The notes below the pieces were generated by a model, which worked only from the letters and a program-made list of their open reading frames with translations, was not told where the DNA came from and did not search any database. Both the position numbers and the translations under genes were made by a program. A stretch of DNA of 64,000 nt from Sutterella sp. AM11-39 (GTDB lineage: Bacteria; Pseudomonadota; Gammaproteobacteria; Burkholderiales; Burkholderiaceae_F), in the NCBI RefSeq assembly GCF_003472385.1, contig NZ_QRLV01000002.1:1-64000 (forward strand), written 5' to 3'. Below, one piece after another: positions 19,149 through 61,153 of the stretch. Within the stretch, counting starts at the first letter, position 1; each line of letters starts with the position of its first letter.

Positions 19149-20420
19149 CTACGGTCCCAAACTCGCAATGGGGACAACAAGGACACCGTCGTCACGTCGA
19201 TAAGCAAAATCTCCCAACGCCGTCAAAACCATCAAAAATGACGGCTTTTGCATCTTTGTGGTATCCAGCTTATCTGCCAACGCTTTCAAGGTCCTGACAC
19301 CGTCTGCAATGCCTTGTTCGCTTCCGAGCTTAATTTCTATGAGGCCATAGGTGCCGTTACGACGATGGATCACTGCATCGCATTCGAGACCGCTTTTATC
19401 TCGGTAGTGATATAGGTTACCGTCCAGAGCCTCGGCGTACACCCGTAGATCACGCACGCAAAGCGTTTCAAACACAAATCCGAACGTTTCCGGCGCCAAC
19501 AGCAAATCCTGCGGTCCGATGCCCAACGCGCCTGCGGCGATGGAAGGATCAGAAAAGTAGCGGGTATCGGAGGTTCGAATGGCTGTTTTGGAACGCAGAT
19601 TCGGATTCCATGCAGGCAAATCTTCGATGACAAAAATCTTCTTTAGAGCGTTCAAATAGCCGAGGATCGTTTTGTCCGATACGCCTCCTCCTTCGCCTCC
19701 TTCAATGTCTTTTGCCAATTCAGGCGCTGAAATCTGCTCTCCCTGATGCCTGGCATAGGCTCGTAACAGGCGACGTGTTGTTTCTTTATTACGCTTAACG
19801 TTGTCGGCTCGTGATATGTCAGCATGGATGATTGCCTCCACATAATTGAAAGCGTTGTCAAGCGCATACTCGGGTTCGAGCTGCAAGGCCGGCGGCCAGC
19901 CGCCGCGACAAGCACAAAAAGCCGTTTCTTCCAAAGAACCATTACTTGCGCATCCGATTCCATGCTTTCCGGCAAACAGTGCTGTCAGACTGACAGCTCC
20001 CGACGACTCTCCCGATTCGACCAATGTCATCGGCCGCATTTTGAGCCAGGCAAATCGACCTGTGCCACTGTGTTTCAGTAGAGCCACATCCACCGGCACA
20101 GCCGAACCCGTCAGCAGGAACTGACCTTTTTCTCCGTTTCGAGCATCCACCTCTCGGCGAATTGCATCCCAGAGATTCGGAGCAAGCTGCCACTCGTCAA
20201 TCAATCGAGGGGTGTCCCCCTGCAAAATGAGCTTTGGGTCCAACCTTGCGAGCTCGAGTGTTCGCCCTGGCTCCATGTTGAGGACACTTGCAGCCTGCTG
20301 CATTGCCGTGGTTGATTTGCCGCACAATTTGGGTCCCTCAATCAGCACCGCTCCCATTGTCATGAGGCGACGTTTGAGCATCGTGTCGACAATGCGTTTT
20401 TTGTATTTAAATTTGCTCAT
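19149..20420 (-). CDS. Stand-alone AAA ATPase, AAA_14/DUF4143 type, with nuclease-like C-terminus
   Basis: The 423-residue protein has an N-terminal P-loop (GPKLCGKSTT near 29-38), Walker B LIDEWQ near 74 and a sensor-like LLTGSA near 103. A winged-helix-like middle and a C-terminal DUF4143 region follow. The C-terminal part contains LECDAVIHRR...LIEIKLG, the acidic plus E-x-K pattern of PD-(D/E)XK nuclease folds. This large family is abundant in gut anaerobes and its function is not known. The gene has no same-strand partner, lies between recJ and tonB, and has 23-bp tandem repeats starting 8 nt upstream of its start codon. It is one of three such ATPases here. Confidence 0.82.
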   Translation of the reverse strand: MSKFKYKKRIVDTMLKRRLMTMGAVLIEGPKLCGKSTTAMQQAASVLNMEPGRTLELARLDPKLILQGDTPRLIDEWQLAPNLWDAIRREVDARNGEKGQFLLTGSAVPVDVALLKHSGTGRFAWLKMRPMTLVESGESSGAVSLTALFAGKHGIGCASNGSLEETAFCACRGGWPPALQLEPEYALDNAFNYVEAIIHADISRADNVKRNKETTRRLLRAYARHQGEQISAPELAKDIEGGEGGGVSDKTILGYLNALKKIFVIEDLPAWNPNLRSKTAIRTSDTRYFSDPSIAAGALGIGPQDLLLAPETFGFVFETLCVRDLRVYAEALDGNLYHYRDKSGLECDAVIHRRNGTYGLIEIKLGSEQGIADGVRTLKALADKLDTTKMQKPSFLMVLTALGDFAYRRDDGVLVVPIASLGP

Positions 20421-20427
20421 TTTCCAT

Positions 20428-20511
20428 TTGGCCGATTTTCATTTAACCAGTTGGCCAAATTTTACTTAACTATTTGGCCGATTTTCATTTAACCAGTTGA
20501 CCAAAATTCAT
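20428..20511. repeat. Tandem 23-bp repeats directly upstream of the DUF4143 ATPase
   Basis: Three full units (20428-20450, 20451-20473, 20474-20496) and a partial fourth (20497-20511) all begin TTGGCC or TTGACC. The first and third are identical over all 23 bases; the second is diverged. Within the array TTTGGCC and GGCCAAA alternate as inverted pairs. The array covers the promoter and ribosome-binding region of the minus-strand gene starting at 20420, so a repressor-type operator is the simplest reading. Confidence 0.75.
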
Positions 20512-20526
20512 AGAAATCCGCGAGGA

Positions 20527-20550
20527 AACCTGCGGCTTTAGCCGCGGGTT
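20527..20550 (-). terminator. Stem-loop after tonB
   Basis: A ten-base-pair stem (AACCTGCGGC/GCCGCGGGTT, one G-T pair) with a four-base loop lies two bases beyond the tonB stop. The T tail is short (TTT on the minus strand), so termination is probable rather than certain. Confidence 0.6.
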
Positions 20551-20552
20551 GT

Positions 20553-21365
20553 TTACTTCAACTCATAGCGAAGCGGGATACGCAGGCGGACTGCATTTTG
20601 CGGCTGTCCCCAATGTGCCTGAGCCGACTCGACGGCCCGTTTGGCCATGTTGTCAAGCATCACCTGGCCTGAGCTCGTGTGGATTTCAAACGCATCCATC
20701 GACCCGTCTTTTCGCACGACAAACTGTACCGTCACCGTCCCCTCCAGACGCAGTTGTCGAGCTCGACGCGTGTAGCGCAACTCCGATTCGATGCAGCGCT
20801 TGACCTTGGCTAAAAACGGATCGTCTTTTTCACCAAAGACAAGCGTGGCAATGCCGCCCTGCGCAGAAGCCGTAGCAGCGCCTCGATCGGTTTGAATCGG
20901 CGCCGGGGCCAATGCTTTAGAGCTTTGCTGCACTTGACTCGATTCGGTCTGTTTGTCCGTCTTCGGAACAGTCTTCCGCACTTGCTTTTTGGGCTGCGAC
21001 TTCGTCAGCGTATGCGGCTTTTTCTCCACCTTTTTTTGCTGCGCTTTTTTCAACGCAGGCTCGGGTTTGGGTTGAGGATTGACGATTTCCTTAGGCTTCG
21101 GTTCTGTTCGTACTTCCGGTTCAGGTTCCGGAAGCGATTCGGCAGCCGCTACTTCCGGTGTCGATACGCCTCCGCCGCTCATCTGCGCAAATGAAAGCGC
21201 AACCGTCTGCTCCTGTCCCGCCGCCTTAAACGTTGTCTCCGGTACGGAGTTCCAAGCAAACACAAACGCAGGCAGGTAGATGAAGCACGTCAGGAAAAAC
21301 GAGCTTGTCAGGCGTTTTTTGTCTTTATGTTGCCTTGTGTTCTGTCGCAATTCGGAAGTTTTCAT
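20553..21365 (-). CDS. tonB: TonB energy-transducing protein
   Basis: TonB spans the periplasm and carries proton-motive energy from ExbB-ExbD to outer-membrane siderophore, heme or cobalamin receptors. The protein has a short cytoplasmic end, one membrane anchor (SFFLTCFIYLPAFVFAW), and a long region rich in Pro, Glu and Lys (PEPEPEVRTEPKPKE and onward). Its C-terminal TonB domain contains LRLEGTVTVQFVVRKDGSMD and AHWGQPQNAVRLRIPLRYELK. The start at 21365 (270 residues) overlaps the end of exbD; a start at 21389 is also in frame. It is the last gene of the Fur-controlled operon. Confidence 0.9.
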   Translation of the reverse strand: MKTSELRQNTRQHKDKKRLTSSFFLTCFIYLPAFVFAWNSVPETTFKAAGQEQTVALSFAQMSGGGVSTPEVAAAESLPEPEPEVRTEPKPKEIVNPQPKPEPALKKAQQKKVEKKPHTLTKSQPKKQVRKTVPKTDKQTESSQVQQSSKALAPAPIQTDRGAATASAQGGIATLVFGEKDDPFLAKVKRCIESELRYTRRARQLRLEGTVTVQFVVRKDGSMDAFEIHTSSGQVMLDNMAKRAVESAQAHWGQPQNAVRLRIPLRYELK

Positions 21366-21717
21366 GGCGGTATTTCTTAAAAACATCAATCACCGTGATG
21401 AAATGCTCGAACTTGGAATCCTTATCGATGCGAAGAACCACGTTTTCCTGGCGAGACAGATTCTTAACGGCTTCGTCAAGTTCTTGCGCCGTCACGCTCT
21501 TGCCGTCCCAATAGAGAACTCCGGCGTTATCAACCTGCACCAGTCGGGAATTGTCGTTTGCCGTTACCTTCGCCCCTGCCTCGGAAGCAGGCAGTGAGAT
21601 CTTGATTTCTCCCTTGGCGATGAAGGTCGAAATGGACAAAACCATCGCAAGCAGCACCAACATGATGTCGATGAAGGGCACGATGTTGAGCGGCTCCTTT
21701 TTGGGTATCTCGATCAT
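21325..21717 (-). CDS. exbD: ExbD biopolymer transport protein
   Basis: The 130-residue protein has one N-terminal membrane helix carrying the essential aspartate ([16 protein letters not shown], Asp about 17), followed by a periplasmic domain. It works with ExbB as the proton-driven motor for TonB. The start at 21717 is chosen because ATGATC overlaps the exbB stop in the ATGA arrangement; an in-frame ATG seven codons earlier lies inside exbB. Confidence 0.92.
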
Positions 21718-22139
21718 TTGCCGTGCGCTTCCTTCCATTGTGTTGAAAGAACGTTGATCTTGCGCTGCAGCCCGTTGTAGACGATGAGCGTAGGAATAGC
21801 CACGGCCAAACCCAGAGCTGTCGCTTTGAGCGCAAGCGACAGACCGGTCATGATCTCGCCCGCGTTGATGTTCCCGGTCGTGCCCATGTCATAAAACGTG
21901 ATCATGATGCCGAGCACGGTCCCGAGCAGCCCCACATAGGGTGCGTTGGAATAAATGATGTAGAGCGTTGTGAGATGGTCGGTGAGCGCCTTGTCGTACG
22001 AGTCCTGCGTGTCGTACTCTTTGGGATCGAGAGTGCGCAGGAAAATCAGGCGCTCGGCCGTAAGCCACACCGTGATGAACCCCATCAAACCGAGGATTCC
22101 GAAAACGAAGTAATCGACACTGTCTTTTAGAAATTCCAC
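21714..22139 (-). CDS. exbB: ExbB proton-channel motor protein, short type
   Basis: This 141-residue protein has three hydrophobic segments (about 10-28, 65-85 and 100-122) and the MotA/TolQ/ExbB signature [18 protein letters not shown] plus [19 protein letters not shown]. It is shorter than E. coli ExbB (244) and resembles the short ExbB proteins of other proteobacterial TonB clusters. It opens the exbB-exbD-tonB operon, which has a near-perfect Fur box about 120 nt upstream. Confidence 0.92.
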
Positions 22140-22256
22140 ATCCAGCCTCGTGTGCGGCGGTGCGAACGGTCTTTCGGATACCGCTTCGCAACCAAAAACA
22201 GGTTATTGGCCAACTCCGAATGCGTTGGAGCCCTTATTTTACCTATCATCTCAATA

Positions 22257-22275
22257 AATGAGAACTATTCTCATT
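22257..22275 (-). promoter_or_regulatory. Fur box of the exbB-exbD-tonB operon
   Basis: A perfect 8-3-8 inverted repeat, AATGAGAA-cta-TTCTCATT, matches the Fur operator core (TGAGAAT/ATTCTCA type). Its place upstream of a TonB operon supports iron repression. It could also affect prfB on the other strand, but that promoter lies about 100 nt farther away. Confidence 0.8.
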
Positions 22276-22500
22276 CTTAATTAAAGCATCTCCTTCCCGT
22301 CGGTTGACAGCTTATGCGGCACACTGCCGGCCTTGTGCTTCGGAAGCCTTGATTTTTCTGAAAAAAGCTTGGAAAGACGGCGCCGCTCAAGGTAAAATTG
22401 CGAGTTTTCAAATTTCTCTGAGGCGCCTGCCGACGACCGGATGTCTTCCGCACGGTTTCCGGCCGCGGGCTCTGTGCGCCCTTACAACGCAGACTTCAAA
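22276..22500 (+). other. Region upstream of prfB with a candidate promoter
   Basis: No gene is supported here. In-frame codons extend upstream of prfB in the post-frameshift frame but have no resemblance to release factors. The best promoter candidate is TTGGAA (22369-22374) with TAAAAT (22393-22398) at 18-base spacing. Confidence 0.45.
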
Positions 22501-23605: not shown

Positions 23606-23628
23606 CCCGTCACAACAAGGATTAAAAA

Positions 23629-26876: not shown

Positions 26877-26980
26877 GCTCTTAGTGCGCGAATTCCTTGA
26901 ATACAATGGTCAACAGCCTCATTTTGTGCCGAAAAACGATATGTCCCAAGCGTTTCCCTCCCTTCCCCTGGGAACATCAA

Positions 26981-27190
26981 CATTCTCCACACTTCAAGAT
27001 CGACACTGGGGTTTTCGAAATCAAGTTTGCAAAAACACAATCCGAAATCCCAACTCTTCTCGACGAAGGCATCACCCAAATCCGAGACCGCCGTTATGGA
27101 AAATCGACACATGCTCCCATACTCAAACGCGCTGTTCTGGTCTTCGACCAATCCTCAAGACAATTTGCCGCATGGCAAGAAACTCCATAG
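26981..27190 (+). pseudogene. Remnant of an AAA-ATPase-like gene (PD-(D/E)XK nuclease C-terminus, PDDEXK_9 type)
   Basis: In a frame different from the following beta-lactamase gene, codons up to the stop at 27188-27190 spell a sequence typical of the C-terminal nuclease-like domain of AAA-ATPase_like proteins. Its landmarks are FKIDTGVFEIKFAKT (acidic residue then E-x-K), GITQIRDRRYGK and AVLVFDQSSRQFAAWQE. No ATPase part or credible start precedes it, so it is a decayed fragment of about 70 codons. It suggests that a fourth relative of the ATPase family once stood here. The exact 5' limit is not clear. Confidence 0.55.
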
Positions 27191-28067
27191 CTTAGGAGCT
27201 CCCCTGATTGCCTTCTGTCTCGGTACAGTCGTCATCAGCGGCTGCAGCACTGTCGCAACCGAAACCGCACCGACGAGCAAGGCGTCTCAAGCGGCCATTG
27301 TGGCTTTAGAAAAGAAGTACGATGCCGCCATCGGCGTGTCACTTCGTGACGCAAAAGGCAAGGTGCTTTTGGAGTGGCGCAGTCGTGAGCGTTTCCCTCT
27401 CACCAGCACCGTCAAGGCTCTGGAATGTGCGCGCGTCTATGAACTGGGACTCGAAAACCACTACGCTCCGATCAAAACCACGCCCATCGTGCCGCATTCT
27501 CCCGTCTACGGAAAAGTAGATCCCGACACGCAGGTGACTTTGAAGGAAGCCTGCCGCGCCGCTCTGTCTCAGAGCGACAACCGTGCCGCCAACTTCATCT
27601 TTGTGCATACCGGCGGACCGAAGGCATTGACCGAGTGGCTGCGGCAAAAGGGCGACAACACCACCCGCAGCGATCGTCTGGAGCCGGATCTGAATCTGTC
27701 CGGCAAAAATGAATACCGCGACACAACGACACCGAGCAATGCATCGCTCAATTGGCAGCGGTTCGACTCAACATTGCCTCAGGCGGCTCGTGAGCAATGG
27801 CTGTCTGACCTTGCATCCAATCAGATGGCCGGCAATCTGTTCCGTTCGCGCCTCCCCGAAAACTGGACGCTTTACGACCGTTCCGGAGCAGGGTCCGATG
27901 AATACTGCGCGACCCGCGCCAATCATGCGATTTTGGTCACGGACAAAGGTGTTCGCTACTATGCCGCCGTGCATTTGAAAGCGCCTGCCGGAACCCCGAT
28001 GGAAAAGCGCGACGCCATCCTGCAGCAGGCCATTGAGGTTGTCTACGCCCACTTGCAGAGCCGATAA
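27096..28067 (+). CDS. Class A beta-lactamase, probable lipoprotein
   Basis: This is a serine beta-lactamase with the class A motifs in order: active-site S-T-V-K (27405-27416), SDN (27573-27581), the omega-loop LEPDLNL carrying the general-base Glu, and RSG in place of KTG (27879-27887). An Arg at that position is known from CARB/PSE carbenicillinases. The N-terminal LIAFCLGTVVISGC is a lipoprotein signal with a lipobox cysteine. The start is uncertain. The first ATG is at 27096, but a TTG at 27165 would give a more normal signal peptide and avoid overlap with the nuclease remnant. No AmpR-type regulator or mobile element is nearby. Confidence 0.82.
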   Translation: MENRHMLPYSNALFWSSTNPQDNLPHGKKLHSLGAPLIAFCLGTVVISGCSTVATETAPTSKASQAAIVALEKKYDAAIGVSLRDAKGKVLLEWRSRERFPLTSTVKALECARVYELGLENHYAPIKTTPIVPHSPVYGKVDPDTQVTLKEACRAALSQSDNRAANFIFVHTGGPKALTEWLRQKGDNTTRSDRLEPDLNLSGKNEYRDTTTPSNASLNWQRFDSTLPQAAREQWLSDLASNQMAGNLFRSRLPENWTLYDRSGAGSDEYCATRANHAILVTDKGVRYYAAVHLKAPAGTPMEKRDAILQQAIEVVYAHLQSR

Positions 28068-31872: not shown

Positions 31873-33087
31873 TCAGTGAGCCGACCACTTCACTTCGGCG
31901 AGATCGATGCCTTCCTTGTGCATTTCCCAAAGTGGCGACAGTTCGCGCAGCTTGGCGACCTTTTCGGTGAGAAGCTTCACGGTGAAATCAATATCCTCTT
32001 CGGTCGTAAAGCGGCCAAGCGTGAAGCGAATCGAGCTGTGCGCGAGTTCGTCGTTGCGGCCGATGGCGCGCAACACGTAGCTCGGCTCAAGCGAAGCCGA
32101 CGTGCAAGCCGATCCGGAGCTCACGGCGATGTCCTTGAGCGCCATCATGAGGCTTTCGCCTTCAATGTAGGCAAAAGAAATATTGAGATTCGTCGGAACA
32201 CGGTGCTTGAGATCACCGTTGACGTACACATCAGGGATATTCTTCAAAATGCCGTCAAGCAGACGCTTGGAGAGCTTTTCGGCGTGTTCGCGATCCTTGT
32301 CGGCTTCAAGAAGCGCCAGTCGGTAGGCCTCCCCCATGCCAACGATCTGGTGTGTTGCAAGCGTGCCGGAGCGCATGCCGCGTTCGTGACCGCCGCCGTG
32401 AATCTGGGGCTCAATGCGCACGCGCGGCTTGCGGCGAACGTAGAGAGCGCCGATGCCCTTGGGGCCGTAGACCTTGTGCGACGACAGGCTCATCAAATCG
32501 ATCTTGAGCTTTTGCGTGTCGATGATGAGCTTGCCCGGCGCCTGCGTTGCGTCGCAGTGAAAGAGCACGCCGCGTTCGCGGCAAATATTGCCGATGGCTT
32601 CGATGTCCTGCACAACGCCGATTTCGTTATTGACGGCCATCACGGACACGAGCGTCGTATCCGGGCGGATGGCTGCCTTGAGGTCTTCGAGGTCGATGAG
32701 GCCATTTTCCTGCACATCGAGGTAGGTGACTTCATACCCTTCGGTTTCAAGATGGCGCATGCTGTCCAAAACAGCCTTGTGTTCCGTCTTGACCGTGATG
32801 AGGTGCTTGCCCTTGTCGCGATAGAAATGCGCCGCGCCCTTAATGGCGAGGTTGTCGGATTCGGTTGCGCCCGACGTGAACACGATTTCGCGGGGATCGG
32901 CGTTAATGTAGGCCGCGATGTGGCCGCGGGCTTCCTCCACCGCCTTTTCGGCTTCCCAACCATAAGCGTGCGAGCGGCTTGCGGGATTACCGAACTTTTC
33001 GCACAGGTAGGGGATCATCTTTTCGGCCACGCGGGGATCGACAGGCGTGGTGGCCGAGTAGTCAAGATAAACAACGTGATGCTGCAT
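31873..33087 (-). CDS. iscS: Cysteine desulfurase IscS
   Basis: IscS takes sulfur from cysteine using pyridoxal phosphate and passes it to IscU, and to tRNA-thiolation and other acceptors. The 404-residue product shows [14 protein letters not shown] at the start, [14 protein letters not shown], the PLP-lysine motif [16 protein letters not shown] (about 200-215), and the active-site cysteine loop [14 protein letters not shown] near 328. Length equals that of E. coli IscS. Confidence 0.97.
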
Positions 33088-33183
33088 TTTTGCGTCTCTT
33101 TACTGTTGTTGGCGCCCGCTCTCGACTCAAACAGCCCGAGAGCGCGCGCATTTTTAATTTGTTTCGTGCGGCAGTCCTTTTGT

Positions 33184-33657
33184 TCAGCTCTTCGGTTCGG
33201 TGATGTGCACAATGATCGGCTGTTCGCGCACTTCGCCGTGATGAGCGTGCTCCTTCAAACTTTTCTCCTTGATGGACTGCAGCGACTGGGCATTGAGAAA
33301 TTCGGCCATCTTGGCGTTCAGGTCCGCCCACAGTCCGTGAGCCAAACACTGTGCACCTCCGCGGCATGCCGCACCGCCCTGGCACTGGGACATGTCCATG
33401 ATGCCCTCGACGGCTTCGACAATTTCGCCGGCGCTGATTTCTGAGGCGTCGCGCCCGAGACGATAACCGCCGCCGGGACCGCGCACGCTTTTGACAAGCT
33501 CGGCACGACGTAGCTTCCCAAAGATCTGCTCCAAATAAGGAAGCGAAATCTTCTGCCGTTTGGCGATGTCAGCCAACCGCACCGGGCCGTTTTCGCTGTG
33601 CAGCGAAAGGTCAATCATGCTGGTGACCGCAAAGCGGCCTCGCGTGGTGAGTTTCAC
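33184..33657 (-). CDS. iscR: Fe-S cluster-sensing regulator IscR (Rrf2 family)
   Basis: IscR senses cluster supply and represses the isc operon when loaded with [2Fe-2S]. The product has an N-terminal winged helix (LTTRGRFAVTSM then KISLPYLEQIFGKL) and the ligands C-x5-C-x5-C-x2-H (SQCQGGAACRGGAQCLAH). The start is a GTG at 33657 with CGGAAGG upstream, giving 157 residues (E. coli 162). Longer in-frame codons to 33780 would run through the promoter and are unlikely to be translated. Confidence 0.94.
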   Translation of the reverse strand: MKLTTRGRFAVTSMIDLSLHSENGPVRLADIAKRQKISLPYLEQIFGKLRRAELVKSVRGPGGGYRLGRDASEISAGEIVEAVEGIMDMSQCQGGAACRGGAQCLAHGLWADLNAKMAEFLNAQSLQSIKEKSLKEHAHHGEVREQPIIVHITEPKS

Positions 33658-33725
33658 AGTCTTGCCTTCCGACGAAGTGGATTGCCCAACCGGCCCCAAA
33701 GGCCGATCTCTAGCGCTCTTCTCTA

Positions 33726-33750
33726 ATAACCTAGTTTGCGAGTCAAGAAT
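33726..33750 (-). promoter_or_regulatory. Candidate IscR type 1 binding site upstream of iscR
   Basis: On the minus strand, 25 bases fit much of the type 1 IscR pattern: ATT-CTT-GACT, five A-rich bases, ACTA, GGT, TAT. The left half matches well and the right half (ACTA against AGTC) less so. It lies about 70 nt before the GTG start, which suits autoregulation. Confidence 0.5.
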
Positions 33751-33761
33751 ATTAATGAAAA

Positions 33762-33786
33762 ATACCCAACAATAAAACATGGGTAT
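33762..33786. repeat. Inverted repeat upstream of iscR
   Basis: ATACCCA and TGGGTAT arms are separated by 11 bases, 12 bp beyond the candidate IscR site. It could be a second regulator's operator in the iscR/ATPase intergenic region; no known consensus is recognised. Confidence 0.4.
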
Positions 33787-33854
33787 TGGTCCAGTCGTCC
33801 GCTTGTATCTACACCATTGATCCGATCAATCGCAATACTCGACGCAACTGGCTT

Positions 33855-33930
33855 CATTTCAGATTTTTTTAAACTATACTTAATAAAAATCTAGATTTTT
33901 GTAAAGTACAACTAGCAATTATCTGAAATG
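33855..33930. repeat. 76-bp nested palindrome ending in the start codon of an ATPase gene
   Basis: Outer arms CATTTCAGAT (33855-33864) and ATCTGAAATG (33921-33930) are perfect inverted copies. The inner core at 33885-33900 is a perfect 16-bp palindrome (AAAAATCTAGATTTTT). Both share the same centre, between 33892 and 33893, and half of the positions between them also pair. The right arm contains the ATG of the gene at 33928. This could be an autoregulatory operator or an mRNA structure masking the start. Confidence 0.75.
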
Positions 33931-35079
33931 GCATACATCGCACGTTCACTCACCGCTCTTCTTGAACGCACGCCAGCCGATAAAGCCATTGTGGTCTTCG
34001 GTGCTCGACAGACAGGCAAAACAACGCTGCTGGAGCACCTTTTCCAAGACCGGAAAGTGAAATGGCTCTCGGGCGACGAGCCTCAGGATCGAGAATTACT
34101 CACGTCGTTGTCTTCCAAAGCGGACATCTCGATTTTGCTTTCCGGTCTTGACGTTCTGGTGATTGACGAAGCCCAGCGCATCCAGGGCATCGGCATGCTT
34201 CTCAAACGTTTGGAGGACAGCAAACCTTCGTGCCTCATTTTTGCCACTGGTTCCAGTTCTTTGGAATTGGCCGGCGGTGTCATGGAGTCAGCCGCGGGAC
34301 GTTTGTGGCCGATGACTCTTTTTCCATTGTCCGTGTCAGAACTGGCCGATCACAATAGTTGGCTTGACGTCATGGAGTCCTTGCCCATTCGATTGACAGT
34401 AGGCAGCTACCCGGAAATCGTGACTCACCCGCAAAGATCCAAGGCAACTTTAAGGTACCTCTTCGAGAGCATCGTTTTCAAAGACTTGTTTGCCATCGCC
34501 GGCATCCGCCGTTCAGAGCAGTTTCTGCATCTCGTTAGGCTTTTGGCGGCTAACATCGGCAATCCCTGCTCTTTCAGCAGTTTGGGTCAACAGTGCGGAT
34601 TAAGTAGTCCCACCGTCGAGCGATGTGTAAGCCTTCTCGAGCAAAGCTTCATTGTGAAGACACTGCCGTGTTACTCCTCAAACTTCGCAACGGAACTAAA
34701 AAAATCCAAGAAGATTTACTTTTACGATCTGGGCATCCGAAACGCCGCTCTCGACAATTTCACGCCATTCTCATCTCGTAGTGATTTGGAACGCGGAGCT
34801 CTCTGGGAAAATTTTGTCATCATCGAGCGGCTCAAATGGCATCGTTATCGACAAGACGAAACACAACTCTACTTTTGGCGCGACCGCAACAAAAGCGAAG
34901 TGGATCTTTTGGAAGTCGACGAAGACGGTTCGCTTCACGCCTTTGAATGCAAATTGACGAATGCGCAAGCAAAAGCGCCGAAAAGTTTTGCGAGCAAATA
35001 TCCCGATGCGTCGTTCGAGGTCATCACGATGCAAACGCTCCATCGTTTTTTCCAGTCTGAGACCTCGGACTTGTCTTAA
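33928..35079 (+). CDS. Stand-alone AAA ATPase, AAA_14/DUF4143 type, with nuclease-like C-terminus
   Basis: The 383-residue protein has Walker A FGARQTGKTT near 24-33, Walker B LVIDEAQR near 83 and the sensor ATGSSS near 110. The DUF4143 part follows (SFSSLGQQCGLSSPTVERCVSLLEQSFIV and KIYFYDLGIRNAAL). Its C-terminal KSEVDLLEVDEDGSLHAFECKL carries the acidic plus E-x-K pattern of PD-(D/E)XK folds. It is unrelated in local sequence to the first ATPase but has the same layout. The role of the family is unknown. It stands alone between iscR and an ABC permease, with a large palindrome at its start. Confidence 0.84.
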   Translation: MAYIARSLTALLERTPADKAIVVFGARQTGKTTLLEHLFQDRKVKWLSGDEPQDRELLTSLSSKADISILLSGLDVLVIDEAQRIQGIGMLLKRLEDSKPSCLIFATGSSSLELAGGVMESAAGRLWPMTLFPLSVSELADHNSWLDVMESLPIRLTVGSYPEIVTHPQRSKATLRYLFESIVFKDLFAIAGIRRSEQFLHLVRLLAANIGNPCSFSSLGQQCGLSSPTVERCVSLLEQSFIVKTLPCYSSNFATELKKSKKIYFYDLGIRNAALDNFTPFSSRSDLERGALWENFVIIERLKWHRYRQDETQLYFWRDRNKSEVDLLEVDEDGSLHAFECKLTNAQAKAPKSFASKYPDASFEVITMQTLHRFFQSETSDLS

Positions 35080-35239
35080 TTGGTCAAGTCCATAATGCAC
35101 ACCTTTCGAAGCAATTTTGCTCAATAGGTGCGGTTGCGCGAGTGCTTCGGTACAATGCGCAGAAATACGCGGCCGACGAGTGTTGAGACGCGCGTTTTTT
35201 CGCGCCCCTGCGTTCCCCCGTTAAAAGGATAAAAACACA

Positions 35240-35905
35240 ATGGAATTTGATCTTTCCCTTATCACCAATTCTCTGCCTTTGTTGCTGCAGGGTGCCCTGG
35301 TGACTCTAGAGATCACGGCGATGGCCGTCGGTCTGGGTTTGGTGTTCGGCCTTTTAGCGGCTCTGGCTCAGTTGTCCAAGTTCACACCGTTGCGTCTGCT
35401 CGCCAAGATCTACGTCGACTTCATTCGCGGCACGCCGCTGCTGGTGCAGATCTTCATCATCTACTTTGCGCTTCCCGCGATCATCGGTCAGCGTATCGAC
35501 CCGTTCGTTGCCGCTGTGGCCGCCTGCTCAATCAATTCGGGCGCCTACGTGGCGGAAATTTTCCGCGCCGGCATCCAGTCGATCGAAATCGGTCAGATGC
35601 GCGCCGGTCTGTCTCTGGGGATGACCTGGGGGCAGACGATGCGCTACATCATCCTGCCGCAGGCCTTCAAGCGCATTATTCCGCCTCTTGGCAACGAATT
35701 CATCGCGATGTTGAAGGACTCCTCCCTCGTGTCCGTCATCGGCTTTGAGGAACTCACCCGCACCGGTCAGCTCATCATTGCCGAAACCTACGGTTCGCTT
35801 GAAATCTGGACGTCGGTGGCCATTATCTACCTGGTGATGACGCTTACCATCACACGCTTGGTTTCCCGTCTGGAAAAGAAGTTCAAGGCAAGCGACGCCC
35901 GTTAG
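35240..35905 (+). CDS. Polar amino-acid ABC transporter permease (GlnP/HisM family), orphan
   Basis: The 221-residue protein has about five membrane helices, the family's start LLQGALVTLEITAMAVGLGLV, and the inner-membrane EAA loop SINSGAYVAEIFRAGIQSI...GLSLGMTWGQTMRYIILPQA that docks to the ATPase. Relatives import glutamine, histidine or arginine. No binding protein or ATPase gene adjoins it, so partners must lie elsewhere. It is followed at once by a strong terminator. Confidence 0.88.
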   Translation: MEFDLSLITNSLPLLLQGALVTLEITAMAVGLGLVFGLLAALAQLSKFTPLRLLAKIYVDFIRGTPLLVQIFIIYFALPAIIGQRIDPFVAAVAACSINSGAYVAEIFRAGIQSIEIGQMRAGLSLGMTWGQTMRYIILPQAFKRIIPPLGNEFIAMLKDSSLVSVIGFEELTRTGQLIIAETYGSLEIWTSVAIIYLVMTLTITRLVSRLEKKFKASDAR

Positions 35906-35930
35906 TCAGAACGCAGCTCCCAAGCCTTCG

Positions 35931-35964
35931 AAAAATGCCTCCCGCGCGGAGGCATTTTTCTTTT
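35931..35964. terminator. Bidirectional terminator between permease and peptide-transporter operon
   Basis: A perfect 12-bp stem (AAAAATGCCTCC/GGAGGCATTTTT) with a five-base loop has T-runs in both directions. It serves the convergent permease gene and the yej-type operon. Confidence 0.9.
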
Positions 35965-35972
35965 CAGCACAA

Positions 35973-37769
35973 CTAAAGACGAGGTACAGCCGCCAGAAGC
36001 GTTTGGGTATAGGCGTGCTGCGGATGCGTGAGAACTTCTGCAGCTGTTCCGCTTTCAACGATGCGCCCGTGTTGCATCACCGCCACCTCGTGCGCCATAA
36101 ATTCGACCACTGCAAAGTTGTGTGTAATGAACAAATACGACACGCCCTGCTCGGCCTGAATTTCCCGAAGCAAATTAAGAATCTGAGCCTGCACCGAAAC
36201 ATCCAGCGCGGAGGTCGGCTCGTCACAAACCACGATTTGCGGTTCAACGGCCAGCGCTCTGGCAATGGCAATGCGCTGACGTTGTCCGCCGGAAAATTCA
36301 TGCGCCAGGCGATCGGCTGCCGCAGACGGCAGTCCCACACTGTCGAGAAGCTCGCTCACTTTCCTACGTGCATCTGCCTTGGAGAGCCCCGGACACAACG
36401 CCATGATTCCGTCGCTCACCAATTCCCCCACGCTCATGCGCGGATCAAGCGACGCAAACGGATCCTGAAACACGATCTGCGCGCAGCTTCTTAAATGCCG
36501 TTTAAAGCGTCCGCGTGCGTCAAAGGCCACCTCTCCGGCTATCTCCACGCTGCCGCTCACCGTAGCGTTTTCCAAAAGTCCCAAGGCGGCCTTGCCCAGC
36601 GTCGTTTTGCCGGACCCGGACTCTCCAACCAAAGCCAAGGTCTTTCCCCGGGCCAAAGACAGCGTTGCGTGACTGACCGCCTCAAAGGCCTTCTGTCGAG
36701 AAAAGAGACCGCCTCGGCTGCCGTACGTCACCGATACGTCCGTGAGCTTCAGTACCGTTTCTTCGGAACGCATCGTCTTTTGCAAGTGCGTTGTACTGCT
36801 TGTTACCGGCGAATCAGGATAGAAGCATCGAACCAAACGACCGGGAACCGTCGGCCGCATTGCCGGACACTTCTGCAAGCACGCCTCTTTGGCAGCCGGA
36901 CAGCGCGGTGCAAAACGGCAACCTGAGGGCATCGCCGAGAGTTCCGGAACACTTCCCGCGATTCCGGTAAGGGTCTGCGCACTTTTATCGGCACTCGGCA
37001 CCGCACTCAAAAGAAGACAGGCATACGGATGACTCGGGTTTTCAAAAAAATCGGAAACTTTGCTCTGTTCCACGATCTGCCCGGCGTACATCAGCGCCAC
37101 CCGATCGGCATACTGACGCACCAGCGCCAGATCGTGTGTAATCAGCAACAGGGCTATACCGTGCTCTTTCTGCAGTTCCTTGAGCAAATCCAAAATCTGC
37201 GCCTGACGCGTTACGTCAAGCGCCGTCGTGGGTTCGTCAGCCACCACGACATCGGGACGACAAGCCAGCGCCATGGCGATCATGACACGTTGCTTCTGGC
37301 CCCCCGAAAGTTCGTGCGCAAACGCATCGAAACGCTTTTGCGGCTCGTCCAGGCCGACGCGGGCGAGCCACTGCAGCGCCCTTTGCCTGGCCTCTTCCTT
37401 GCTGACACGCTCATGCAGTCGAACCGCTTCAACAATCTGCTCACCCACCGTCATCACGGGATTAAGGCTCGTGGCAGGCTCCTGAAAAATCATCGCGATG
37501 CGATCGCCTCTTACGGCCTGCATCTCGCGCTCGGTGAGTTCCAGCAAATCCGTTCCGTTGAGGCGCACCTCGCCGCGATCGATATATAAGCCGTCGGGCA
37601 GAAGACGCATCAGGGAAAGCGCCGTAAGCGACTTGCCGCAGCCCGATTCGCCCACAAGCGCAAAGCATTCCCCCGAGCGGATCGAAAACGACACGTCGTC
37701 AACGGCCGTCAGAGAAGTTTGGCCTCCGATCCGTACGCTCAGATTCTTGACGTTGAGAATTTCTGCCAT
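35973..37769 (-). CDS. yejF: Peptide ABC transporter, fused double ATPase (YejF-like)
   Basis: The 598-residue protein contains two complete ABC ATPase domains. The first has GESGCGKS, LSGGQKQR and VADEPTTALD; the second has GESGSGKTT, FSGGQRQR and CDEPTSALD. An oligopeptide-transporter cysteine motif (CRFAPRCPAAKEACLQKCP, about 283-301) joins them. The layout equals E. coli YejF (529) and fused DppD-DppF. It is the last gene of the four-gene importer operon, nine bases after the permease. Confidence 0.92.
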   Translation of the reverse strand: MAEILNVKNLSVRIGGQTSLTAVDDVSFSIRSGECFALVGESGCGKSLTALSLMRLLPDGLYIDRGEVRLNGTDLLELTEREMQAVRGDRIAMIFQEPATSLNPVMTVGEQIVEAVRLHERVSKEEARQRALQWLARVGLDEPQKRFDAFAHELSGGQKQRVMIAMALACRPDVVVADEPTTALDVTRQAQILDLLKELQKEHGIALLLITHDLALVRQYADRVALMYAGQIVEQSKVSDFFENPSHPYACLLLSAVPSADKSAQTLTGIAGSVPELSAMPSGCRFAPRCPAAKEACLQKCPAMRPTVPGRLVRCFYPDSPVTSSTTHLQKTMRSEETVLKLTDVSVTYGSRGGLFSRQKAFEAVSHATLSLARGKTLALVGESGSGKTTLGKAALGLLENATVSGSVEIAGEVAFDARGRFKRHLRSCAQIVFQDPFASLDPRMSVGELVSDGIMALCPGLSKADARRKVSELLDSVGLPSAAADRLAHEFSGGQRQRIAIARALAVEPQIVVCDEPTSALDVSVQAQILNLLREIQAEQGVSYLFITHNFAVVEFMAHEVAVMQHGRIVESGTAAEVLTHPQHAYTQTLLAAVPRL

Positions 37770-52920: not shown

Positions 52921-52925
52921 AATTC

Positions 52926-55609: not shown

Positions 55610-58600
55610 CGTGGGCCAAAAGACTTTTCATCGGTGCAACCTCTGTGCTGGTCGTGCTTGCAGCCGTCCCCGGATTTCTGCTCGGCACTGAAACGGGCCT
55701 TCAAATCATCAAAGGCGCGCTCGAAAAAGCCGTACCTGGCCTGAGAATCGAATCGCTGAGCGGCTCTGTCTTCTCGCTTAAAGCCGACAATTTGCAGTAC
55801 GACGTCCCCGGCCTGGCATTTCACGGAAATCTTTCATGGGACTTGAGTGTCGCCAAGCTCCTGTCTCGGCGCGTGGCTCTCCATGACTTTGAGATTTCAG
55901 ACGCCTCACTCCTCGTTCGAACGCAGGAAATGGCGTCGTCGGCTTCAACGCCTGTCCCGAAATCGCCTACTCAAAAGCTTGACGAAACTCAGACCTCGCG
56001 GTTTAAAACACCGGTTGCCGTGATTGTCGAGCGCGTGGCAATCAAAAACCTGCAGGCTGACATTGACGGTAATGTTGTTAACGTTGGGCTTTTTCAGACA
56101 CAGGCTGTTTGGACGAAAGATCGCCTCGACATTGACTCCGTGCGTCTGGAAGATTCAAGCCTTGCATCGGCCCAAACACCACCCTCCGACGAACCGCTCG
56201 GTGCCATGCTCAAGCGCACCTTCTCGCAACCCGTTGTGCCGGAAATCCCCACCGTCGACCTGCCGCTGGATGTTAATCTCAAACACTTTGAGCTTTCTCG
56301 CTTTGCCATCAAAGGCAATCCCGATCAAATCATCGAATCGGCTACATTTGCGCTCACCGCTCAAAACGGCGTCGCGACACTGGAAAACATAGCCGTCCGA
56401 GCCATGAACGCGGAGCTCACGGGACGCATGACGATGGGACTCGATGCCCCTCATGAAGTCAATCTTGAACTTGACGTCTCATCTCTCGTGCCCCGCGAAG
56501 CAATCCCAACCGGCACTGTGCCGCCGGTTGCCGAACCGACAACGGAAGACATTGAAAACTTCTACGAGCGACTCAAAGAGGTACGTGCCGAACGACTCAA
56601 GGCTGCCCAGGAACGTCGTGCCAAACATCGGGCTCAGGGTCAGGCCAGAAAACAGGTCGACATTAAAACTTTGTCGCGAGAAGAGCGTCGCGAACTCCGA
56701 CGAAAAGCAAATGCTCGGCTCAAGCGCCGCATAGAACAATGGCGTGACAGCGTGCGCGGCCTATTGCCCAAACGGGAACCGCAGCCTCCCGTGACCGTAA
56801 CGGCAAAAATCTCAGCTCGAGGCGCTCTTGCCGACACTGTCACTCTCAGCGGCCGTGTCAATAACGTCCCAGGCGTCGAAGGCGCTTCGTTTGTGCTGAA
56901 AGCTTCGCCCACGACAGTCGGTCTGCCGATGTCTGCGGAAATCAAAGCCGATAAGGTTGAAATTTCCGGTTCGGAAATCAGCGGCGTTTCCGTCAATCTC
57001 TCGGGCAAGGCCGTTGATTATGCGCTGCAAGTCTCCGCCAAGGCGACCTATCCCGTTGACGATAATCACAGCTTTACGGCTGACGTTCTCATCCGCGGCA
57101 AAGGATCGGAAGTCGCCGCGCATCTGACGGACTTCTCCGTGCAGTCCAACGTCGGACGCATTCAGATAGACGGGCAGGCCAACTGGGAGAAAAACGCCCG
57201 TTTCGCCGCTTCACTGAATCTTTCGGGTATCGATACCAAAGCCGTGCTGCCGCAAACGCCTCTGAAAATCGACGGCAGCTTCATCGTCTGGGGTTCTCGT
57301 CAGAACGGACGCTGGAAAGCCAAATTGCAGGACCTGACGGTTCTTGGGGAATTGCGCGGGCAATCGTTGGCGCTCACAGGCGCTGTCGAATCACACGGCA
57401 ACGGAATTGTGGAAGCCCCTGAACTCTACTTTGCCGTCGGCGACAACACCTTTGAATTCTCAGGAAAGGCTGACTTTGCCAAAGACATCCCGGAACTGGA
57501 CTTCAAGACCAAAATTGATGCTCCCGATTTCGGTTTGGTCGATCCCAACCTGCTGGGATCGGTCAAAGGCACATTGGCCGTAACGGGAACCACGAGGCTG
57601 CCCGTCATCAACGCCGATCTGACGGCACGCAATATTGACTATCTCGGCACAACACTTAAGCGCGGCCATCTGACCGGGCGCATGCGTTCGCGCGACGTGG
57701 TTTCCGGTCGACTGACACTGCAGCTTACCGACTTCAAGACGCAAGGCGTCGACATACGCAAAGCAACGATTGAATTACGTGGAAACGAACTGCGGCACAA
57801 CCTGACCGTACACACGGAAGGCACTCCAATTTCCGTTGACGCCAAAATCTCGGGCATTTACGAACGTATGCTCGGCAATTGGGCTGGCGCCCTTGCCGAG
57901 CTCAAAGTCAAAACCGCATACGGCCCCGTCACTCTTGAAAAACCAATGCGCCTGGCTTATGTGCCCGACCTCAACCGAGCCAATGTCAGCAAAGCATGCC
58001 TGGCTCATACCCATGCACGACTGTGCCTGGAAAACGATCTCAAACTTGATCTCACCAATCGAAGCGATCTGCGCATTCTGCTCAGCCTTCCGAAATTCGA
58101 TCTTGCTTTCATCAAGCAATACTTCCCGGGACGATTTGTTGCGGACGGCATCATCCAGGCCAACGCAGACGTGACGCTGCCGGCGGGACTTTCTGAACTT
58201 CCTCGCGGCCGCGTTACCGTGCAGGCAAAAGACATCAGCACCAAATACCGCATGGATCTCAGCGACCTGAAGGTGGGGTTCAATTCCGTTCAACTCAGCT
58301 TTGCCAATGCCAAGGACAGCATTGAAGGCAACTGGAAGATCGACATCAAAGATAACGGCGACATTGAAGGTTCGCTTCGCATGAGCGATCTGTTCAACAC
58401 CCGCACCGTCGACGGAACACTGAAGTTCGTCGCAGTAGACGCCACCCTCGTTAACTCCTTCCTCTCACCGGGTGAATCCGCCGAAGGACAATGGTTCGGC
58501 AATTTGCGCTTTGCCGGTACGTTGGAAGAGCCTCTGATTTACGGACGAACCGGACTTTTTAATGCCAAGCTTGACTCAACAAAACTTCCCTTCGAAATGT

Positions 58601-59679
58601 TGCCCAGCGACATCAAACTGATCTTCAACGGCAACTCTTCCACCCTCGAAGGGCACCTCAAAACACCTCAGGGAGAAGTCACACTTTCCGGAGCAGCCGA
58701 TTGGCGCACTATCGGTGAAGGCAAAGCGATCGTGACAACCAAAGGAAGCAACTTGCGCGTGACCTTACCTCCTGACATTGAGTTTGACCTCACCACTGAC
58801 GTAACCTGCGAGGCAAGCCGCGATCTGATTAAGCTTGACGGCTCCATTTCGGTTCCCTGGGCTAAAGTTTCAGTCAGCAAACTACCGGCTTCTGCTGTTG
58901 ACGTTTCCGACGATGTTGTTCGTCTGGACCGTCCGCGTGCCAAGAAAAAGGCGGCCGGCAAGCCCATACCCATAGAAAGCCATCTTCGCATTCACATCGG
59001 GGATGATGTTCGTGTTGAAGCCATGGGCCTAAAGGCCAGACTCACCGGGAACCTCAATGTGATTCAAGACAATGGGACCCTTGGTTTAACCGGTCAAATC
59101 AGCGTTCCAAGCGGTAACTTCAAGGCTTACGGACAAGACTTGCTCGTTCGCCGAGGTGAATTCCATTTCGTGGGGGCTGTTGCCAATCCTCTTCTGGACC
59201 TGGAAGCCATTCGCAACCCGGATCGCACAGCCGATGATGTGATTGCTGGCATTCGTGTCACCGGCTCGGTTGATTCTCCGCAGGTAGCTGTCTTCACCGA
59301 TCCGGCAAAATCCGAAACGGAAGCCTTGAGTTACCTCATTCGCGGCGAAGGTCTTGATCCGTCGGGCGACTCGGACAACACCATGATCACCTCCGCCCTC
59401 ATTAACCTTGGCTTGAGTCAAGGCAGTCATGTGTTCGAATCGCTAGGCGACGCAGTCGGCATCAGCGGCCTCGGCTTTGAAACCGAGGGCGTCGGTGACA
59501 GCTCGCAGCTAGTGGTATCGGGTTATGTGTTGCCGGGTCTCAAAGTGAAATACGGCGTCGGGATTTTCGATTCCCTGGCGACGCTCACGCTTCGCTATCG
59601 CGTTATTCCGAGATTGTACGTGGAAGCAGTGAGCGGCGTAGATCAAGCGCTTGACCTGCTCTATTCGTTTGAGTTCTGA
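55606..59679 (+). CDS. tamB: Translocation and assembly module inner-membrane protein TamB
   Basis: The 1357-residue AsmA-like protein is anchored by one N-terminal helix (about 8-28) and forms a long periplasmic beta-rich bridge. The C-terminal DUF490/TamB domain (about 1000-1357) shows VRRGEFHFVGAVANP, DVIAGIRVTGSVDSP and TEALSYLIRGEG, and ends in a barrel-like LLYSFEF. An Arg/Lys/Glu-rich helical stretch at about 315-395 breaks the beta pattern, which is unusual. The ATGA overlap with tamA shows the two form one operon. Confidence 0.94.
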   Translation: MTWAKRLFIGATSVLVVLAAVPGFLLGTETGLQIIKGALEKAVPGLRIESLSGSVFSLKADNLQYDVPGLAFHGNLSWDLSVAKLLSRRVALHDFEISDASLLVRTQEMASSASTPVPKSPTQKLDETQTSRFKTPVAVIVERVAIKNLQADIDGNVVNVGLFQTQAVWTKDRLDIDSVRLEDSSLASAQTPPSDEPLGAMLKRTFSQPVVPEIPTVDLPLDVNLKHFELSRFAIKGNPDQIIESATFALTAQNGVATLENIAVRAMNAELTGRMTMGLDAPHEVNLELDVSSLVPREAIPTGTVPPVAEPTTEDIENFYERLKEVRAERLKAAQERRAKHRAQGQARKQVDIKTLSREERRELRRKANARLKRRIEQWRDSVRGLLPKREPQPPVTVTAKISARGALADTVTLSGRVNNVPGVEGASFVLKASPTTVGLPMSAEIKADKVEISGSEISGVSVNLSGKAVDYALQVSAKATYPVDDNHSFTADVLIRGKGSEVAAHLTDFSVQSNVGRIQIDGQANWEKNARFAASLNLSGIDTKAVLPQTPLKIDGSFIVWGSRQNGRWKAKLQDLTVLGELRGQSLALTGAVESHGNGIVEAPELYFAVGDNTFEFSGKADFAKDIPELDFKTKIDAPDFGLVDPNLLGSVKGTLAVTGTTRLPVINADLTARNIDYLGTTLKRGHLTGRMRSRDVVSGRLTLQLTDFKTQGVDIRKATIELRGNELRHNLTVHTEGTPISVDAKISGIYERMLGNWAGALAELKVKTAYGPVTLEKPMRLAYVPDLNRANVSKACLAHTHARLCLENDLKLDLTNRSDLRILLSLPKFDLAFIKQYFPGRFVADGIIQANADVTLPAGLSELPRGRVTVQAKDISTKYRMDLSDLKVGFNSVQLSFANAKDSIEGNWKIDIKDNGDIEGSLRMSDLFNTRTVDGTLKFVAVDATLVNSFLSPGESAEGQWFGNLRFAGTLEEPLIYGRTGLFNAKLDSTKLPFEMLPSDIKLIFNGNSSTLEGHLKTPQGEVTLSGAADWRTIGEGKAIVTTKGSNLRVTLPPDIEFDLTTDVTCEASRDLIKLDGSISVPWAKVSVSKLPASAVDVSDDVVRLDRPRAKKKAAGKPIPIESHLRIHIGDDVRVEAMGLKARLTGNLNVIQDNGTLGLTGQISVPSGNFKAYGQDLLVRRGEFHFVGAVANPLLDLEAIRNPDRTADDVIAGIRVTGSVDSPQVAVFTDPAKSETEALSYLIRGEGLDPSGDSDNTMITSALINLGLSQGSHVFESLGDAVGISGLGFETEGVGDSSQLVVSGYVLPGLKVKYGVGIFDSLATLTLRYRVIPRLYVEAVSGVDQALDLLYSFEF

Positions 59680-59712
59680 CGAAGCTTCGGAACGCTTTTC
59701 TTGGTTCACGCT

Positions 59713-59754
59713 ATAACGCGTAACAATAATACGCGTAATAATGTTACGCATTTT
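59713..59754. repeat. Near-perfect 42-bp palindrome before the third ATPase
   Basis: GCGTAACA (59718-59725) and TGTTACGC (59742-59749) are perfect inverted copies whose centre coincides with that of the ACGCGT core at 59731-59736. Most positions between and outside the arms also pair. The element lies 10-50 nt before the ATG at 59765 and contains the alternative ATG at 59741. Confidence 0.75.
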
Positions 59755-59764
59755 TAGGTGTCAG

Positions 59765-61153
59765 ATGTCTGCTGCTTCCAAAAATACGTTCTTCGGTCGC
59801 GAACGCGAGCTCCTTCAACTGCAACGACTCCGCTCCACCGTGAAGGACAAATCCATCAGTCGTTTTGTCGTTGTCTCCGGCAGACGCCGCGTCGGTAAAA
59901 CACGTCTCATCCTGGAGGCACTGCCGTCGTGCGACGATATGCCGTCGGTCTACGTCTACATCAACCCACACCTGGATGCCGGATCCAATCTCGAGGATTT
60001 TTCCGAAAGCCTGAGAGAATGTCTTGGGTGGTCCCGCCCGCGGCGGCTTCACGACTTCGAAGATGCACTGATGGAGGTATTCGAAGTCGCCAAACAGCGT
60101 CCGATCACTTTGGTGCTCGACGAATTCCAGAACTTCGGTCGCGTTGAGCCGAGTTTCTACGGCACTTTGCAAAAGCTCTGGGATTTGCACCACGAAAAAA
60201 TGCAGTTGCTTCTCGTTGTCTGCGGCTCCGTTGCAAGCTCTATGCGTGAAATCTTCGAGAACGGTCAAGCACCGCTTTTTGCCCGCAACAATGCTGTTCT
60301 TCACGTCGAGCCGTTGCTGCCCGATCTCGTCAAAACCGTTTTCAAAAGCTATTGCCCGAACTTCAGCGGAGACGACCTTTTGGCGCTCTACGCCTTCACA
60401 GGTGGCGTAGCGCAATACATCCAAAACTTTTTGCCGATGGGCGCCTTTACGCTTGAGGATATGCTGCAGCTGGGCGTAGAAGAGAATTCTGTCTGGCTTT
60501 CCGAAGCGCAGCTAATGCTTGCCTCCGAGTTCAAAGGTTCCGCGCAAACCTACTACGAGATTCTCCGACGTATTGCCGCCGGTAAAAACAAACGCGCCGA
60601 ACTCATCAGGTCTTTCTCAATTGACGTATCGGCGCATTTGTATCAGCTTCAGCACGAGTACGGTCTGATCGAGTCGCTGGACCTGGTCGGACAAAACGGC
60701 GCCAAGCGTCAACGCGTTGCATATGAACTCAACGACGAACTGTTGGATTTCTGGTTTACCTTTATCCTGCCCAATCAACGCATTCTGCAGAGCCACAATA
60801 CGCAAGCCATCCGTCAGTTGATTCTGCGCGATTATCCGAATCGGTCCGGCCGTGTGCTCGAAAGACTATACCGTCGCCATTTCCGCAACCTCGGTCTATT
60901 CACCCAGGTCGGGCCATGGTGGGATCGCAATGGCACCAACGAGATTGACTGCGTAGCGGTCGACGACCTCAACCAAACCGTCTGTTTTGCCGAAATCAAA
61001 CGCAATCCGGCCAAAATTCAGATCTCGTCATTGAAGGAAAAGGCAAAAGTTTTTCTGTCCTTCAATCCGGAGCTTGAAAACTATCAAACGCTTTTCCTGG
61101 GCTTGTCCACCGAAGAGCTCGGATCAGACAAAAAACTGCCTTTTGAAACATAA
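59765..61153 (+). CDS. Stand-alone AAA ATPase, ATPase_2/DUF234 type, with nuclease-like C-terminus
   Basis: The 462-residue protein starts with FFGRERELLQLQ, then Walker A SGRRRVGKTRL near 40 and Walker B LVLDEFQNFG near 112. A winged-helix DUF234-type middle follows (YYEILRRIAAGKNKRAEL...HLYQLQHEYGLIE). The C-terminal GTNEIDCVAVDDLNQTVCFAEIK has the acidic plus E-x-K nuclease-fold pattern. Archaeal and bacterial relatives have no proven role. The gene is alone between tamB and leuA. A start at 59741 would place the ATG inside the palindrome. Confidence 0.84.
   Translation: MSAASKNTFFGRERELLQLQRLRSTVKDKSISRFVVVSGRRRVGKTRLILEALPSCDDMPSVYVYINPHLDAGSNLEDFSESLRECLGWSRPRRLHDFEDALMEVFEVAKQRPITLVLDEFQNFGRVEPSFYGTLQKLWDLHHEKMQLLLVVCGSVASSMREIFENGQAPLFARNNAVLHVEPLLPDLVKTVFKSYCPNFSGDDLLALYAFTGGVAQYIQNFLPMGAFTLEDMLQLGVEENSVWLSEAQLMLASEFKGSAQTYYEILRRIAAGKNKRAELIRSFSIDVSAHLYQLQHEYGLIESLDLVGQNGAKRQRVAYELNDELLDFWFTFILPNQRILQSHNTQAIRQLILRDYPNRSGRVLERLYRRHFRNLGLFTQVGPWWDRNGTNEIDCVAVDDLNQTVCFAEIKRNPAKIQISSLKEKAKVFLSFNPELENYQTLFLGLSTEELGSDKKLPFET

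Follow-up and report, generated by a model that had tools for sequence, protein, structure and literature searches.

Stand-alone ATPases with nuclease-like tails and private promoter repeats in Sutterella sp. AM11-39: candidates for self-regulation

The stretch analysed here, the window, comprises 64,000 nt of Sutterella sp. AM11-39 (GCF_003472385.1, NZ_QRLV01000002.1, positions 1-64,000, forward strand). It carries three single-gene ATPases, termed A, B and C, each preceded by repeats that form a putative operator, and a decayed fourth locus, D (Table 1). Its closest relative found was an uncultured Duodenibacillus (genome G001, locus L001; RecJ identity 85%), and "the genus" below means the genus of G001, to which the window is presumed to belong. 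A preliminary description made from the sequence alone had placed three stand-alone ATPases of known families here. This placement is confirmed, as all three are open, full-length reading frames and their Pfam domains score above the curated cut-offs (DUF4143 2e-34 and AAA_14 2e-11 for A; DUF4143 2e-40 and AAA_14 7e-24 for B; ATPase_2 6e-16 and DUF234 4e-11 for C). NCBIfam and PHROG scans of A-C gave no match, and a search of the PDB with B and C found no sequence relatives (best E 0.095 and 0.54, respectively). The frame of gene C opens at 59741, and because that ATG falls within the promoter repeat, we judge 59765 the likelier start.

Table 1. Family genes, putative operators and neighbours in the window
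Feature	Position	Strand	Description
Gene A	19149..20420	-	AAA_14 P-loop ATPase + DUF4143, 423 aa
Gene A neighbours			Convergent recJ and TonB/TolA-like gene (names by eye)
Gene A putative operator array	20426..20505	-	34-base repeat, period 46 (2 x 23 bp), unit about GGCCAAMTRGTTAARTRAAAAT; ends 5 bp before ATG
Locus D, PDDEXK_9 (AAA-ATPase_like) decayed C-terminal remnant	26897..27190	+	Inside segment absent from G001
Gene B putative operator	33856..33927	+	13-base repeat, period 32, flanked by ATTTCAGAT...ATCTGAAAT
Gene B	33928..35079	+	AAA_14 + winged helix + DUF4143, 383 aa
Gene B neighbours			iscR-like gene (-) and gene at 35240 (+)
Gene C putative operator	59714..59756	+	15-bp tandem repeat ACGCGTAAYAATA(AT); end set by eye
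Gene C	59765..61153	+	ATPase_2 + DUF234, 462 aa
Gene C neighbours			tamB-like gene before; convergent with gene at 61219

The P-loop, DE-x-Q and acidic plus E-x-K motifs pointed out in the preliminary description are not due to chance, because the key residues hold in alignments of 56 sequences for B (with relatives of A) and 54 for C. In B, E81 and Q83 (Walker B), E324, D326 and K342 are invariant and E340 is kept in 90% or more; in C, D119, E120, Q122, E393, D395 and E410 are invariant and K412 is kept in 90% or more. The AlphaFold2 models are confident (pLDDT 90.5 and pTM 0.90 for B; 93.1 and 0.89 for C). Model B shows a P-loop core and a helical part, together with a winged helix made up of helices 197-208, 216-223 and 227-239 and of strands 243-248 and 261-265. 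Its tail runs alpha-beta-beta-beta-alpha-beta (helix 286-308, strands 313-318, 324-330 and 336-341, helix 352-357, strand 362-366), with E324, D326, E340 and K342 in place. The tail of model C is built in the same order (helix 346-375, strands 381-386, 393-400 and 405-411, helix 420-433, strand 441-447), with E393, D395, E410 and K412 in place. The PD-(D/E)XK core has the topology alpha-beta3-alpha-beta, and the modelled tails of B and C agree with it in element order and residues; nuclease activity is a prediction from these models. Among the fold matches listed, the nearest solved structures for both B and C are two archaeal ATPases, 2qen and 2fna; next come CED-4, plant NLRs and Apaf-1 for B and ORC/Cdc6 for C. 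No solved nuclease is among the matches listed for either protein.

For promoter repeats, the 130 bp preceding each start codon were scored for direct and inverted repeats without gaps, relative to dinucleotide shuffles, with a threshold of p<=0.02. Upstream of A, 23-bp units stand in tandem and give a direct-repeat score of 31 vs 7.1 in shuffles (p 0.0099, as low as 100 shuffles allow); one interior unit occurs a single time in the window at up to 3 mismatches. For B, the direct score is 10 vs 6.9 (p 0.0099) and the inverted score has p 0.03, and the ATCTGAAAT flank of the operator extends into the start codon. The repeats of C are significant in both orientations (direct p 0.010, inverted p 0.005), and its unit is found twice within 2 mismatches in the window vs 0.05 expected.

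Such repeats recur in a large part of the DUF4143 family. Of 144 non-redundant DUF4143-type genes, 47 carried direct repeats, 56 inverted repeats and 86 either kind, compared with 11, 23 and 30 of 250 control genes from the loci collected, drawn at random out of 326. The set of 144 left out proteins under 330 aa, scores under 40 with the hidden Markov model (HMM), genes with under 150 bp upstream, proteins lacking a P-loop in the first 110 residues and sequences that matched another fully or at more than 95% (150 to 146 to 144); five of its members come from the ATPase_2/PDDEXK_9 loci L138-L185. A stricter scan (100 bp, p<=0.0067) gave 66/144 family genes vs 18/250 controls (Fisher 6e-19), with the family exceeding controls in each of four AT classes, and in the loci of the window and the genus alone it gave 24/44 vs 8/134. 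The direct-repeat idea arose from viewing 63 upstream stretches, and the first scoring (27/49 family genes vs 5% of 150 controls at p<=0.05) was made largely on those and is hence not independent. A measure based on 9-mers with one mismatch was weak (10% of 49 family genes vs 4% of 150 controls, p<=0.05) and was dropped. In a class-wide set, direct repeats alone were found in 8/35 genes at p<=0.05, and the inverted-repeat score was added afterwards. Loci gathered after both measures were fixed (L262-L321) showed repeats in 33/57 family genes vs 9/65 controls, a count that may include up to four genes already in earlier loci.

Plasmid-borne relatives from several phyla carry repeats in 9/18 cases, and plasmid loci L352-L363 in 6/12 (L363 is unannotated, and its match start was taken as the gene start). 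Among DUF234 genes, 19/28 have repeats, gene C included and a few having been seen beforehand. PDDEXK_9 genes have an ATPase followed by a PD-(D/E)XK tail as well, but differ in that promoter repeats occur in 0/7 usable genes (7 of 18 loci gave a usable start). The grouping made in the preliminary description therefore has to be divided, with the PDDEXK_9 type set apart.

The geometry of the repeats is restricted. The periods of the 47 direct repeats are 22-23 bp (7), 31-33 bp (19), 46 bp (4), 61-66 bp (8) and others (9); 38/47 therefore have periods of 22-23 or 31-33 bp or their doubles, a favoured set that was defined after the periods were seen, vs 11% of best periods in all 250 controls and 2/11 of the significant ones. 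Palindromes are commonly about 35 bp long. When 77 genes were assigned to 23-bp, 32-bp and palindrome classes, the classes changed 12 times on the protein tree, whereas 100 shuffles averaged 31.6 changes and never gave fewer than 27. The letters are shared over much shorter distances: gene pairs clearly sharing a stretch amount to at most 0.3% at 15-25% protein identity, 2.7% at 50-60%, 26% at 60-70%, 29% at 70-80% and 91% (n=11) above 80%. Judged from these sequences, repeat geometry follows the protein tree, whereas most copies have a repeat sequence of their own once protein identity falls below about 60%. In the clade of gene A (L121 with 72%, L306 and L126 with 57% identity), for instance, the 23-bp type spacing and a GCCAAA core are common and the flanks differ by eye, although L121's own repeat score is not significant. 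Four family genes from four genomes (L302, L303, L090 and L098; 53-94% protein identity) have a common TTATGGAA-type palindrome and make a good series for operator-protein co-evolution.

Motif uniqueness was assessed over the whole genome in three relatives, and for A and C within the window. In G011 (2.2 Mb) the motif lies at three sites 33 bp apart in its own promoter only (up to 1 mismatch); in G008 (1.6 Mb) it lies at three tandem places 32 bp apart in its own promoter, plus one stray site at 3 mismatches; and in G144 (3.2 Mb) it lies at two places, in its own promoter only (up to 3 mismatches). Repeats overlap a promoter-like site in 80% of the 85 genes having both, with a mean cover of 0.49 vs 0.40 when slid (p 0.027), a position in line with autoregulation. 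The genes stand alone, with 7% of the 83 having both neighbours in view starting within 50 bp of an upstream open reading frame. In B, the exposed-looking recognition-helix positions 227, 228, 231, 232 and 235 belong to the most variable residues of their segment, as expected if they determine specificity.

All four sites are empty in G001. The window and G001 contig C85 run parallel over about 7.2-36.8 and 50.5-64.0 kb, and the site comparison covers those stretches. At site A, the flanking-protein matches end 14 bp apart in G001 vs about 1.46 kb in the window; at site B, 318 bp lead from the iscR-like gene to the next gene without gene B; at site C, 103 bp separate the anchors and gene C is absent; and at site D, G001 lacks both the PDDEXK_9 remnant and a gene resembling class A beta-lactamases. 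Site B is occupied by unrelated genes in other genomes. Both flanks fall on one contig in 2/10 genomes of the genus for A, 7/10 for B, 1/10 for C and 7/10 for D, and a DUF4143-family HMM found no member in these intervals, nor any next to the flank in those further genomes where a single one could be read (8 for A, 3 for C). This HMM was built for DUF4143 and not DUF234, and the absence of gene C is read from the 103 bp in G001. Given these empty sites in the closest relative found, genes A-C look like gains in the window's lineage, which is the simplest reading of this comparison. At site D, where the preliminary description had seen a C-terminus only, the frame at 26897-27190 resembles PDDEXK_9 in its C-terminal half, with a score under the Pfam cut-off (18.3 vs 25.5 bits). 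We take it as a real remnant because, of the 18 PDDEXK_9 loci in the genus, 11 match it at 34-46%, with a best E of 6e-15.

DUF4143 matches occur in 10/10 genomes of the genus, with 2 to 14 per genome, and the PDDEXK_9 type in 8/10. Together with the sites empty in G001, these counts agree with the repeatedly gained, stand-alone gene type that had been proposed. The 82 DUF4143 matches (fragments included) in a summed 20.8 Mb or so correspond to roughly 0.25 per 64 kb. With two DUF4143 genes and one DUF234 gene, the window is above average but not extreme. Class-wide, at least one DUF4143 match is present in 105/274 genomes and DUF234 in 17/274; many genomes in the analysis are fragmented and lack quality figures. 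Several small genomes of the same class (G031, G065, G088, G246 and others; 1.5-2.4 Mb) have 12 or at least 13 scored DUF4143 matches, and up to 28 first-look candidates vs one to three in most positive genomes.

The domain families themselves are already known. A and B match PADLOC PDC-S01 models (AAA_14/DUF4143; E 1e-67 and 1e-121) over nearly their full length, and C matches two PDC-S27 models (ATPase_2/DUF234; E 3e-40), in a library without curated cut-offs; the private 15-bp operators are added to PDC-S27 here. We take PDC-S01 to be COG1373 and PDC-S27 to be COG1672. Both names are labels of phage-defence candidates, and it is in this form, as a predicted role, that the defence link of the preliminary description stands. 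The part of PMC12988326 available to us places PDC-S01 fourth by frequency among the defence types of prokaryotes, describes PDC-S01 and PDC-S27 as ATPases fused to PD-(D/E)XK, states that validation is pending for most such candidates, and mentions no operator or autoregulation for PDC-S01. Operators of these genes likewise go unmentioned in the available parts of PMC4406477, PMC5760070, PMC13356809 and PMC11514479 (subscription papers and preprints lay outside this scope), and within these sources copy-specific promoter repeats were not found in print. A regulatory parallel is IniR of mycobacteria, with an ATPase domain predicted to be SSO1545-like, which binds a promoter and induces transcription; as far as the excerpt goes, it differs in having a separate C-terminal DNA-binding domain and another operon as target, with no nuclease tail described (PMC5760070). 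In T. thermophilus, the DUF4143 gene TT_P0211 is reported to be 6.6-fold up when a plasmid is carried, only if Argonaute is present (PMC4406477, seen in part), a response that by analogy hints at an alarm for foreign DNA.

The private promoter repeats suggest that each protein controls its own gene, and we lean, if only slightly, towards the view that A, B and C are self-regulating single-gene ATPase-nuclease modules that bind their own operators through the winged helix. Autoregulation is proposed because the motif, where tested, sits only in the promoter of the gene encoding the winged-helix protein, and because the spacing, roughly two or three turns of the helix, is passed on with the protein even as the letters drift along with it. 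Such a recently gained protein would join a P-loop core of archaeal-ATPase/STAND type to a winged-helix part, which is clear in model B, and to a tail resembling PD-(D/E)XK. Its winged helix would bind the repeats or palindrome of its own promoter, several protomers lying side by side in near-helical register, and the bound protein would repress or otherwise set its own transcription. The ATP state or foreign nucleic acid might then release the protein, so that the tail acts. As operator sequence would drift together with the protein, many paralogues could coexist in a genome without cross-talk, which would explain how one small genome holds many modules. A private, ordered operator before most copies tested predicts the bound site, the protomer number and a promoter that reports the state, and the trigger and activity are thus testable copy by copy. 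A defence role is proposed less firmly than autoregulation.

Several observations weigh against self-regulation by these proteins. No significant repeat was found by these scores in 58/144 genes, operator presence is weakly structured on the tree (37 changes vs 45.5 shuffled, lowest 39), and the overlap of repeats with promoters is modest. Few pairs have any stretch in common below 60% identity (2.7% at 50-60%), and the co-variation is drawn from 85 closer pairs. When operator choice was mapped onto protein segments, the recognition-helix window 218-232 had the highest partial r, 0.15, next to 0.13 for 141-155 and about -0.33 for 106-127, and the pairwise test did not single out the recognition helix. 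Of the 86 repeat-bearing genes, 75 gave a usable 13-mer, and this recurred within 250 bp downstream in 6/75, where 0.8 were expected, and inside the gene itself in 9, where 3.2 were expected. The PD-(D/E)XK fold proposed in the preliminary description is borne out by element order and residues in the models, but the nearest solved folds of B span residues 1-288 only, the alignments with PABY2304 (2qen) and SSO1545 (2fna) stop at residue 276, and none of the matches listed pairs the tail with a solved nuclease.

A host factor could bind the operators instead, in which case the repeats would serve a host repressor that silences incoming DNA. The AT-rich promoters (0.66 vs 0.51 AT in controls) and a foreign origin of the genes would suit silencing, but the tested motifs are unique in their genomes, whereas a shared site is expected of a host factor, and the repeats co-vary with the protein, their geometry following its tree; we hold host control to be distinctly unlikely. 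A functionless origin by chance or local mutation in AT-rich promoters is harder still to accept, and we give it hardly any credence: 12% of controls pass the threshold, and 31% (4/13) in the most AT-rich class, yet the dinucleotide shuffles and AT classes, the clustering of periods, the clade-conserved geometry and the negative PDDEXK_9 set all speak against it. More plausible, though doubtful, is that the families act in signalling or metabolism rather than defence, their operators answering to a small molecule, which would be compatible with autoregulation. The STAND-like folds, the response of IniR to trehalose (PMC5760070, available part) and the lack of tested defence activity in the parts of the literature considered favour such a role; the PADLOC candidate label, the invariant nuclease-like residues and the plasmid- and Argonaute-dependent rise of TT_P0211 (PMC4406477, as seen in part) count against it.

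The preliminary description had also entertained a selfish element. On such a reading the private repeats would be the ends or target of an ATPase-nuclease that moves its own gene. Four sites empty in the nearest relative, a patchy distribution across phyla and on plasmids (515/72,556 records), as many as 14 matches in one genome of the genus and the above-chance downstream recurrence would all fit such a gene. A transposon or homing element should, however, have its recognition sequence at both ends or in empty targets. Downstream recurrence is rare, 69/75 genes having no motif within 250 bp; the longest word common to both junctions of a site is 5-7 bases; and the motif is absent elsewhere in G011, G144 and (up to 2 mismatches) G008. 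We accordingly regard mobility of this kind as very unlikely, and this part of the preliminary description is not supported.

A bolder version of self-regulation, which we think unlikely, would make one polypeptide the repressor, sensor and effector, kept at its private operator in the form of an ordered oligomer. Its displacement, by invading nucleic acid or by a competitor bound to DNA, would induce the gene and load the nuclease. If this were true, private operators would keep a dozen paralogues per genome independent, and a genome would collect a set of orthogonal alarms.

Three minor elements lie close to these loci. Adjoining the array of gene A, a terminator-like hairpin (20507-20549, AACCTGCGGC-TTTA-GCCGCGGGTT) recurs at seven listed places in genome G007, 86-91% identical, and by its sequence looks like a dispersed terminator or a repetitive extragenic palindrome (REP)-like repeat. 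A conserved non-coding element at 33715-33790, also present in G001, which has no gene B, was considered as a leftover of a family gene and dropped, as it precedes the iscR-like gene; it is probably an ordinary iscR promoter, presumably resembling an IscR-type site, and Rfam gave no match over 33000-36000. Finally, the protein encoded at 27027-28067 resembles a class A beta-lactamase (NCBIfam 173.8, below the 200-bit cut-off) and begins like a lipoprotein; its gene shares the G001-absent segment with the PDDEXK_9 remnant.

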